NCBI GenBank assembly: GCA_018466975.1
Contig: JAENRS010000017.1
Coordinates: 124,001-188,000, forward strand
Direction: 5' to 3'
Length of the DNA stretch: 64,000 nucleotides
Source: Sparassis latifolia
Taxonomy: Eukaryota > Basidiomycota > Agaricomycetes > Polyporales > Sparassidaceae
This document shows, piece after piece, positions 28,046 through 32,061 of this stretch; position 1 is the first letter of the stretch, and each line of letters starts with the position of its first letter. Both the position numbers and the translations under genes were made by a program. The notes under the pieces were generated by a model. The model made no database searches. It was not told where the DNA came from and saw only the letters and a list, made by a program, of their open reading frames with translations.

Positions 28046-28488
28046 TTCGATTGTTGAGAACCTATACAGCAGCTAGGAAGTGCGGGGACGATGTAGAGAC
28101 TATTCCCTGACAAGGAGAGGGAGTGGGTGAAGAAGCGCCTGTTCAAACTACAAAGGACATTCTATCACCTAGTGATCTCAATGCAGTGTGTGAGCACGAC
28201 GTCGACATGTCATCTGATAACAGTGCGGGCGACGTAGACATATGTTATGCAACACGCCATTCAGGTGAGGCAGGGAAGAGAGGAGAGATCTGGACACGAG
28301 CGTTTTGTATAACATCCATCCATGTTTTGTCTAATTTACCCGAGGAAGCGTGCTCAGGGAAATTGAGAGAAAACATAACAAGTGAAAATCTCTCCATTGC
28401 TGAACTTCGACAGGGCACTAGATACATATCATGAAACGAACCAGAGTCTTACCCCAAGCATACCCCCCGTTCACCAACCTAGCCCACC
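28046..28488. other. Intergenic, Smr promoter and antizyme 3' end
   Basis: Both flanking genes run on the minus strand, so this 443-bp gap should carry the Smr-gene promoter and the antizyme terminator. No gene is seen here. Confidence 0.5.
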
Positions 28489-29407
28489 TTAGATTTCCAT
28501 CCCTACAAGAATATAAGCCGCATCCACCGGGAAAGGCGGCGTCGTAACGACCGTGCCTCCCACGTACATGAGCGAGTGAAGAAGCTCGCCCAGCGCGGGG
28601 GAGGACCGCTCGAGAGCGATGACCAATGCAGAGCACTGCAAGCGTTCGTCCGCCAAGTCCAAGAGTGCAACGATGCTGCATGACATATTAGCATTTACAA
28701 GACCAACATAACTAGCGCCACACTCACCTCTCTCGCACATTGACATTGGCCGCGCTTTTAGGGTCCACGTAAAGCGTCTTGGGCTTGCCGGGCAATTCGA
28801 GGACGACGCCCTCGAACGTGGCATCCATGTTCGGCGCGGAAATGGAGACGCTCTTAGCATGAGGGAGCGCACCGAGGGCGTTCCGTGGGAAGAGTGCAGA
28901 CAGGAAGTCAAGCGCGGCGTTGGCCTGTTTTGCACTGATGGCAGCAACACTGCCGTCACCCTCCCCGGCATCGTCAGGCGTCAGCGGGGGCGTGACAAGG
29001 TCGGGGAGGGGTGCGCCGACTTGCTTTTGGATGATGGCGCGCGGCGCGCTGCCGTGCGCGAGCGCGCCGCCAAGGATGTCGTGGTCGGGAGGCGGTGTGG
29101 GAGGGTACTCGATGGCGTTGGGGAAATTTTCTGTTCCGAATGATGATGATAGCGTGGATGAGGTGTCTGAAGGAGAGGAGGAAATCGTAGACGCCAGACT
29201 GTCTGTCACCCAGTCCGACGACCCTCGATCTGGAGGGCATTTTGCATTGGGGGCGTTAAAACCGCCACTATGGAACCGTCAGCGACAAACGTCAAGCCAG
29301 ATGTTATATTCAACACTCACCCCCGGCCCGCCAGAGAACGTGGTAGAGTAATAGTACATCTCGTCGGTGCCCTGCATCTGGCACACCGCAAGCACGCTAG
29401 GAGTCAT
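28489..29407 (-). CDS. Ornithine decarboxylase antizyme (+1 frameshift gene)
   Basis: Antizyme binds ornithine decarboxylase, sends it to the proteasome and represses polyamine uptake. Exons are 29407-29321, 29267-28728 and 28675-28489. ORF1 (M-T-P-S-V-L-A-V..., 32 codons) ends SGGPGWRF-stop. ORF2, one base ahead, continues N-A-P-N-A-K-C and runs for about 238 residues to a stop at 28489. The C-terminal antizyme fold is clear: FLSALFPRNALGALPHAKSV, ELPGKPKTLYVDPKSAANVN, VALLDLADERLQCSALVIAL and LLHSLMYVGG...ILVGMEI. The middle is Ser/Thr/Pro-rich. I found no nearby splice choice that would put ORF1 and ORF2 in one frame, so polyamine-stimulated +1 frameshifting is inferred. The family identification is firm. 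ORF1 may have further upstream exons. Confidence 0.88.
29253..29267 (-). promoter_or_regulatory. Programmed +1 ribosomal frameshift site UUU-UAA
   Basis: Just after the first intron the mRNA reads UGG-CGG-UUU-UAA-C-GCC-CCC. ORF1 stops at UAA (29258-29256). Skipping one U lets the ribosome read AAC-GCC-CCC, which is ORF2. Animal antizymes read UGG-UGC-UCC-UGA-U-GCC-CC at the same place, giving W-C-S then D-A-P against W-R-F then N-A-P here. The alignment of the tryptophan and the Ala-Pro supports homology of the site. UAA instead of UGA is the unusual part. Confidence 0.75.
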
Positions 29408-31170
29408 GTCGAAAGAGAACGCCCCATCTCCAACGGTTTGACGACCGTTGCTGCTCCGAGTGTCAACTCATCATCGAACTAGGAGGTGAAGACATGGAAA
29501 CATACGTGGGGCAAATACTAGATTGGTGTTTTGAATAATTCATAATATTGGAGATCGACATGGGGTGCCAATGCGTTAGTAGCTGGATTTCAAGTAAGCG
29601 CTGGGCTGTAGAACAAAAACGTCAAGGTATCAGTAATTCTTCCTCATATTTGAGCGGGAAAGACTCACTTTGTGCGAGCAGAATGCTAGCGTTGTGGTCT
29701 GTCAGCGAGGAGTTCGGTAGCAAGCAGCGAAGGGCTGCACCTCCTGTCTTATCGTCAGCCCGAGACCGGACCCCGGACACCAGAGCACGTGGATGTGGCT
29801 GCTTCACTTGGTCGCCTACTCACGTCCGGAAAGTCACGCCCATAAATTCGTCCAGTTGACGCTTCTGCAGCTGTTCTATGTACATTAATATTTAGCGATG
29901 TGCACTAGTTCTAGCAGGTGCTGCTGCCAGCGATCAACCAGGTAAGTGAGGCGTACTCTGAGACTCGAAAGCCGTGCCGGCTGACCAGCGCAGACGATCC
30001 TTCACGGTCCGTTGGCCAGACGAAAATATGTCGACGACGGCCGGACAGTGTGAAAGTATGACGATGAGCTACACGGTGGCACCGATTGAGGACACGGACC
30101 CGCGTCCAGGGGCTACGATGACATACAGTCGCTGAGTGCCCAGAGCTTGATCCTCGAGGCAAGAATATCAGCGCTCTTCATCGACGGTAACCCCATAATG
30201 CAATTTCATACAAGATATTTACCGACAGACATATACCGGTGTTGGACTAGTGACAGGCTTCTTCAGTAGACTTGACGCGCAAGCAGTAGTCGCAGAACTA
30301 ACCAGAAGCGTCAGTTGCAAGACGAGGTACGTACCGGTATTTTCTCATCTCAAAAGGGCACCACGGTTTCGATGAAATACAACCCGTGATCTTCGTGCAC
30401 TGGGGATAACCACGTTCAGAACTGAATGGTTATCTCCAGTGCGCGACATGGTTATCCCCAGTTCACGAATATCTTGATGGTCAGCTGGCCAAGGGAAAAC
30501 CGCGCGACGTCCTCGCCGAAGGTGCGATATTGATACGACCGCAATCGCTATCGCGTGAGGGTCCTTGCATCGTGTCAGAATGTATTGAAGCGACGATGAC
30601 TTACCATGTTGAAGTTGGCAAGAACCATCAGAAGCACGGGCAAGACGAGCAATCTTCCAATGTGCTTGTGAGAAATATCGGTGTGCACGACACGAGACTT
30701 AATCGACATCAGCGAGTTAGTCGGCCATGCAACGAAGGACATGAATGAGAAGAGATATTGATCGTTCACAAGGGATGCTGCAGAGTACTTAGATATGTAT
30801 ATGAAGGTTCAAACGTTCACTGACAGTGAGGAACGACTCCGAAATGGAAGGGAAACTCCGGGGTCCCAACCTTAGGGCCGGTCTCGTCCCGATTGAGCAT
30901 CTCTTGCGGTGGGAGGTGCTCAGAAATCTGCAGGCGAGCTCAACGTCGACCTACCTCAAGACGTGAGTGTCTTTCTGCTATTTTGACACCGGGAATTTGT
31001 TGCAGATGTTATTATGGATGTCTGCTCAAATTTCTGAATTTATTGGCCTATGCTGACGCGATGGATCGGTGGTTTCGCGAGCGGATGATCCTACCTTCTT
31101 CTCGGGTTTGGACCAGGGAACCCCTGCTTACGATTTTCCTTGTCTGCAGTAATATCTAGGTGAAAACAAA
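29408..31170. other. Divergent intergenic region, antizyme and RPS2 promoters
   Basis: The antizyme runs leftward and RPS2 rightward, so this 1.76 kb holds both promoters. Pyrimidine-rich stretches precede RPS2, and its start context is AAAACAAAATGG. No convincing gene lies between; open frames such as 29548-29859 plus lack any domain. A three-arm inverted/direct repeat is listed at 30,397-30,462. Confidence 0.5.
30397..30462. repeat. Inverted repeat plus third arm
   Basis: GCACTGGGGATAACCA (30,397-30,412) pairs with TGGTTATCTCCAGTGC (30,427-30,442), 15 of 16 bases, around a loop holding the palindrome TTCAGAACTGAA. A third arm, TGGTTATCCCCAGT, follows at 30,449-30,462 in the same sense as the second. 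The function is unknown. It may be the fold-back end of a small element or a cruciform regulatory site. Confidence 0.7.
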
Positions 31171-32061
31171 ATGGCTGACGCACATCGCGGACGTGGTGGA
31201 TTTGGGCGTGGGCGCGGAGACAGAGGACGGGGCCGTCGGGGACCCCGCCGCGGCGGACGCAAGGACGAGGAGAAGGAGTGGTGCGTCTCAATTATTCCTG
31301 CTGCAATTAACGCGATTGCGAACAAATCTGGTTCCCAAAGGGTTCCCGTCACGAAGCTGGGCCGTCTCGTAAAGGACGGCAAGATCAAGTCGATGGAGGA
31401 GATCTATCTGTTCTCGCTGCCCGTGAAGGAGTACCAGATCGTCGACTTCTTCTTGCCGAAGCTTAAGGACGAGGTGATGAAAATCATGCCCGTGCAGAAG
31501 CAGACGCGCGCTGGCCAGCGCACCCGCTTCAAGGCGTTCGTCGCGATCGGCGATTTCGAGGGGCACGTCGGCCTCGGCGTTAAATGCGCGAAGGAAGTCG
31601 CCACTGCCATCCGTGGCGCCATCGTTCTCGCGAAGTTGTCTGTCATCCCCGTGCGGCGGGGGTACTGGGGTGCGGCCCTCGGTGAGCCACACACCGTGCC
31701 CTCGAAAGTCAGCGGGAAGGTCGGTTCCGTCATGTGCCGTCTCATCCCTGCGCCGAGAGGTACTGGTCTCGTCGCGGCGCCCGCGTCAAAGCGATTGCTG
31801 CAGCTTGCTGGTGTCGAGGATTGCTACACGCAGTCGAAGGGTTCGACTGCGACAATGGGTAACTTCTTGAAGGCCACCTTCGTTGCTGTAGGTATATTTC
31901 ATTGTATCTTTGTTACGTCATTCATCTCTTTTTCGGTTCAGATCACACAAACATATTCCTTCCTCACACCCGATCTCTGGCGCGAGATCCCTCTGTCGAA
32001 GTTCCCTTACGACGAGCACAGTGCGCACTTACAGCTTGCGGCGGGCAAGAAGGCGTATTAG
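31171..32061 (+). CDS. RPS2: 40S ribosomal protein uS5 (RPS2)
   Basis: uS5 sits at the mRNA entry tunnel of the small ribosomal subunit and helps decoding fidelity. Three exons, 31171-31280, 31341-31887 and 31942-32061, encode about 258 residues, the usual eukaryotic length. The N-terminus is an RGG tail ([15 protein letters not shown]), a typical site of arginine methylation. The double-stranded RNA-binding S5 domain is seen as [30 protein letters not shown] and [10 protein letters not shown]. The end matches [23 protein letters not shown]. Introns are 60 and 54 nt with GT...AG. The gene is complete and unbroken, and likely highly expressed. Confidence 0.97.

Follow-up and report, generated by a model that had tools for sequence, protein, structure and literature searches.

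Known antizyme frameshift systems

The system closest to the one described here is the frameshift cassette of Agaricomycete antizymes, as set out for C. cinerea in the cited parts of PMC4505036. There, ribosomes shift +1 into the antizyme domain at UUU-UGA, a combination found in 34 of the 34 Agaricomycete antizymes surveyed and in one Dacrymycete (35/35; PMC4505036). The site is surrounded by a UGG-CGN core (module A), an 11-aa nascent peptide at codons -15 to -5 that stimulates the shift in C. cinerea, a 14-bp 5' stem 106 nt upstream with a stability of at least 30 kcal/mol, an absolutely conserved AAAU, and two adjacent 3' stem-loops that start 19 nt after the site, with a conserved second loop of 7 nt; the codon CGA in the E site weakens the shift (PMC4505036). 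The antizyme gene of Sparassis latifolia has the UUU, the UGG-CGN core, the peptide, the 14-bp 5' stem at the same distance, the AAAU with the twin stem-loops and the +1 relation to the antizyme domain. It differs from the C. cinerea cassette in its stop, which is UAA and not UGA, in the first residue after the shift, which is Asn (AAC) instead of Asp, and, in the predicted fold, in a 3' structure that begins at 20 and not 19 nt and has a second loop of 9 instead of 7 nt (PMC4505036). On its sequence, the Sparassis site is best described as a variant of the Agaricomycete cassette and not as a standard member of it.

Animal OAZ1 (UCC-UGA-U) shares with Sparassis a +1 shift that depends on the ORF1 stop and occurs one codon ahead of it, and a W two codons ahead of the shift codon, and its role in polyamine feedback is counted here as a further likeness to the Sparassis antizyme (PMC5009743, PMC9841425). 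It differs by its UCC, its UGA and its 3' pseudoknot, and lacks both the Agaricomycete peptide and the twin-stem structure. The OAZ1 gene of Saccharomyces (GCG-UGA-C) is similar to that of Sparassis in shifting +1 at the ORF1 stop and in the C that follows this stop, whereas its P-site codon, its mechanism (which involves inhibitory elements) and its UGA are different (PMC5009743). In Euplotes, +1 frameshifting is described at stops that include UAA, which then occupies the A site; it is proposed to depend on an altered release-factor recognition within a reassigned code (PMC5009743); in contrast, the Sparassis eRF1 motifs are standard, TASNIKS, YLCDNKF and GGQ all being intact in a motif check of the eRF1 locus (L010). 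On these grounds, the idea that a changed eRF1 explains the UAA was rejected. A second locus with an eRF1 domain (G000:C10:943578-944068; L009, L011), in which a script found no NIKS, is perhaps, as a guess, a Dom34/pelota-type relative.

What is known in mushrooms is the UUU, and what appears to be new is the UAA exception at an antizyme shift site: in a signal whose other elements are kept, the one base that differs naturally is the one that determines which stop the release factor has to recognise.

The antizyme gene of Sparassis latifolia

In the window, the 64,000-nt stretch of S. latifolia DNA analysed here, the antizyme gene is encoded on the minus strand and is predicted to comprise four coding exons and three GT-AG introns of 55, 53 and 52 nt. 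Exon 1 (29506..29561) opens ORF1 with an ATG at 29561, and the public S. latifolia protein P0001 shares its first 50 residues with this start; it is followed by intron 1 (29451..29505; GTATGT...GCAG). Exon 2 (29321..29450) continues ORF1 and ends in ...GGC GGG CCG GGG at 29321, where intron 2 begins (29268..29320; GTGAGT...CCATAG), with a donor that agrees at 4/4 scored positions and a 3' end that abuts the W codon. Exon 3 (28728..29267), opening with TGG CGG TTT TAA C at 29267, carries the end of ORF1 and most of ORF2, and after intron 3 (28676..28727; GTGAGT...GCAG) the end of ORF2 and of the antizyme domain is supplied by exon 4 (28489..28675). Splicing presumably proceeds as modelled.

Under this model ORF1 has 65 aa (MSISNIMNYSKHQSSICPTNGRQTVGDGAFSFDMTPSVLAVCQMQGTDEMYYYSTTFSGGPGWRF), a length that requires the removal of the upstream intron (29505-29451), and its spliced 3' end reads ...YYYSTTFSGGPG-TGG-CGG-TTT-TAA-C. 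The shift codon UUU and the stop UAA, followed by C, occupy 29256..29261 of the minus strand, with UAA at 29258-29256. In the +1 frame ORF2 translates as GGF-N-APNAKCPPDRG and onward as NAPNAKCPPDRG; the junction peptide of the predicted shifted product is ...GGPGWRFNAPNAK, and the product as a whole has 303 aa. The PF02100 domain (ODC_AZ) lies in ORF2, +1 to the short ORF1, at residues 208-290 (E 4.7e-13), and its score of 49.5 bits, against a curated cut-off of 24.2, places the protein among the ODC antizymes.

The original prediction, that ORF1 ends in W-R-F-UAA and that the antizyme domain resumes in the +1 frame from N-A-P, is borne out by the sequence, the splice model and PF02100 alike. 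Its intron directly before the W agrees with the coordinates and the splice point, although this is the second intron of the gene, the upstream one having gone unmentioned; and the W, said to lie three codons ahead of the shift, is more exactly codon -3, counted back from the stop. The further claim of a homologous +1 recoding site with both shift codon and stop altered stands for UAA in place of UGA but not for UUU, which is the published standard: the cited part of PMC4505036 gives UUU in every Agaricomycete it examined, which rules it out as a novelty.

The best protein match among 619, of which the best 120 were listed, is P0001 of S. latifolia itself. The genome also has an ornithine/arginine decarboxylase-family gene on contig C7, which is likely the target of the antizyme. 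A ribosomal protein uS5/RPS2-like reading frame, recognised by eye from its translation, adjoins the antizyme gene on the plus strand (window 31153-32061).

Stimulatory elements

The published Agaricomycete stimulators are recognisable around UUU-UAA from sequence and computed folds. The 5' stem-loop is divided between the end of exon 1 (29506..29512) and the start of exon 2 (29421..29450), so it is the removal of intron 1 that allows the published 14-bp stem to form across the junction; in the spliced mRNA its 3' end lies 106 nt from UUU. Its minimum free energy is -24.4 kcal/mol in a 39-nt piece (z -5.0, with 0 of 200 shuffles as stable), which is computed to be weaker than the Agaricomycete figure of PMC4505036. 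The nascent peptide YYYSTTFSGGP is encoded by codons -15 to -5 (29324..29356), and the identical 11-mer recurs in 95 of 172 proteins (the best 120 of 619 matches plus 52 added); its SGGP at -8 to -5 is as in C. cinerea (PMC5009743, Table 2).

The core of module A, UGG CGG (29262..29267; W and R, with CGG as the E-site codon), corresponds to module A as given in PMC4505036. Among 113 readable proteins, P0001 included, from the same set (best 120 of 619 plus 52), the residue before Phe, which betrays the third base of the E-site codon, is Gly in 77+1, Ala in 19 and Val in 16. The E-site Arg codon CGA is absent from these 113, CGG, CGC or CGU being present instead, and this absence is in line with the published weakening of the shift by CGA. 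Downstream, AAAU (29239..29242) abuts the first stem of a 3' structure of two directly adjacent stem-loops (29192..29238), for which a minimum free energy of -24.8 kcal/mol was computed (z -2.9, with 1 of 200 shuffles as stable). An Rfam scan of 28400-29700 gave two weak matches only, both far below gathering scores.

UAA among relatives

The stop of ORF1 can be read from the ORF2 residue that follows the shift, since GAY (Asp) corresponds to UGA, AAY (Asn) to UAA and AGY (Ser) to UAG. Protein databases thereby suffice to tell the ORF1 stop, by Asp versus Asn after the shift, despite gene models that hide the frameshift. This readout presumes a UUU before the stop, as published for 35 species, and the other species were read here as protein and not as DNA. 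The sample comprised 172 proteins, namely the best 120 of 619 matches plus 52 added, of which 58, with gene models that bypass or leave out the junction, were dropped before counting; the remaining 114 were read by regular expression (110) or by eye (P0034, P0167, P0171 and P0172). The junction residue is Asp in 113 of them and Asn in one, P0001, and Ser (UAG) occurs in none of these 114. The entries are 90% identity clusters and not independent species, some are environmental, and the sister species S. crispa falls outside the sample; the readable relatives include Amylocystis, Taiwanofungus, Gelatoporia, Trametes and Ganoderma.

The original prediction had proposed to look for conservation of UAA in other Agaricomycetes, and the answer is negative within this sample, Asn being confined to S. 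latifolia (1 of 114 readable among the 172). On this evidence, UAA appears to be a lineage-specific exception and not a general Agaricomycete feature. It was probably produced by a single G-to-A substitution in the Sparassis lineage, which would have been tolerated because the shift can still proceed at any stop as long as the stimulators are retained. No UAA antizyme site is named in the titles or abstract openings of the listed papers on antizyme frameshifting; the 2007 survey of such shift sites by Ivanov and Atkins, the chief one in this field, lay outside this search, and a UAA site may already be known elsewhere in eukaryotes. Many public fungal antizyme models splice around the frameshift, so that databases conceal the recoding; the public S. 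latifolia model does so by means of a non-consensus GTTCTC donor.

Proposed decoding of UUU-UAA-C and its possible retuning

The reading that we regard as very probable is that this gene encodes an Agaricomycete ornithine decarboxylase antizyme, made by a +1 frameshift at UUU-UAA-C which polyamines stimulate. In the proposed mechanism, the P-site peptidyl-tRNA-Phe would re-pair one base ahead on UUU-U with no mismatch, after which the A site would take AAC (Asn) and ORF2 would be made. As this re-pairing is perfect, the change from UGA to UAA should leave the slippage untouched; it would alter two items in the A site, the frame-0 stop and the sense codon of the +1 frame (AAC instead of GAC/GAU). 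Reporter assays with human OAZ1 tolerated just two substitutes for UGA, namely UAA and UAG, at about 50% of the wild-type level, and among P-site codons UUU alone came near that of wild type (PMC7297798). Hence by analogy a UUU-UAA shift is predicted to work but to be weaker, at about half strength, and possibly to be differently tuned. We infer that frameshifting occurs at this site and is sensitive to polyamines, and that its efficiency is lowered or reset by UAA. A role of UAA in release-factor competition at the polyamine sensor, as suggested in the original prediction, is plausible and finds indirect backing in published work.

It is conceivable that the change was adaptive, i.e., that UAA became fixed under selection to lower basal antizyme synthesis or to alter the polyamine response while the stimulators were kept. 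Human reporter work places polyamine sensing at the termination step, polyamines acting mainly on the termination efficiency of OAZ1 (PMC9841425), and UAA halves OAZ1 shifting (PMC7297798); taken together, these results would put the change on the sensor step itself, and UAA is moreover common to both genome copies of the gene. However, drift would account equally well for one substitution in one lineage, and a compensating change was not seen: both peptide and structures look standard. Selection on the stop is a possible but rather doubtful explanation. If true, it would offer a one-base natural experiment on how stop identity sets the polyamine set-point. UUU-UAA makes the part of stop identity in polyamine sensing directly testable; as a metabolite sensor whose stop nature itself has varied, the antizyme gene is of moderate interest.

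Possible splicing around the junction

Frameshifting would be superfluous if alternative splicing fused ORF1 and ORF2 in frame, the UAA then being absent from the functional mRNA. Public models of S. latifolia and of many other fungi do splice around the junction, and a scan of GT donors for introns of 35-160 nt around intron 2, in which donors alone were scored, returned 14 donor-acceptor pairs that could join the frames; all 14 donors, however, agree at no more than 1/4 scored positions, versus 4/4 for the modelled intron. Further evidence against such a fusion comes from Ganoderma lucidum, for whose cDNA two ORFs and a shift at TTTGA have been reported (PMC9604110); P0034, which reads GGPGWRF-D-LP, is probably the same sequence. 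Several proteins that stem from environmental contigs about 1 kb long (e.g., P0110, P0112, P0145 and P0157) likewise look, by eye, continuous through the exon joint in the ORF2 frame, and under in-frame splicing the stimulators would lack a reason for retention. Fusion of the frames by splicing is therefore very unlikely.

The second copy and the reliability of UAA

The presence of UAA in one species only could also point to an assembly or base-calling error, or to a dead allele. Against this, the genome holds two copies of the gene, one in the window and the other on contig C12 (G000:C12), that are 97-98% identical over the gene and differ at many other positions, and both carry UAA (TTTTAAC). 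The public protein P0001, which comes from a public contig of another length (186,573 bases), possibly of the same strain, agrees: it has N at the junction and is identical to the C12 copy from there to the C-terminus. Finally, the 276 coding nt around UAA (the first two exons plus 90 nt at the start of exon 3) show 0 differences between the copies, whereas the other 637 coding nt show 10 substitutions and one 3-nt gap, and the 160 intron nt 6 substitutions. The chance that none of 10 substitutions would hit 276 of 913 coding nt is about 0.03, if an even spread is assumed and given that the 90-nt cut was chosen by the authors; the unchanged stretch counts as modest support. An error or a dead allele is consequently highly improbable. 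A-to-I editing of the middle A of the stop, which would present ribosomes with a UGA-like codon and would account for UGA being otherwise the sole stop seen, is hardly credible, since UAA is expected to work unedited (PMC7297798).

The two antizyme copies are probably alleles or haplotigs. Window positions 2256-46409 align with G000:C12:2565001-2625000 in pieces that amount to about 35 kb and are about 91-98% identical, apart from an overlapping one at 81%, and this extent of alignment around the gene is the reason why alleles or haplotigs are preferred and two separate paralogues disfavoured. The comparison covered 60 kb of C12, the last base of this stretch being the end of the first aligned piece, and no match within these 60 kb was listed for the window after 46409. 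The contig that holds the window (C15) seems to be a haplotig allelic to C12, lying near the end of that contig. The alignment between C12 and C15 is broken by insertions and by large presence/absence blocks, and one such block of about 3.7 kb is found on the C12 side directly beside the 3' end of the antizyme gene, at window position 28310.
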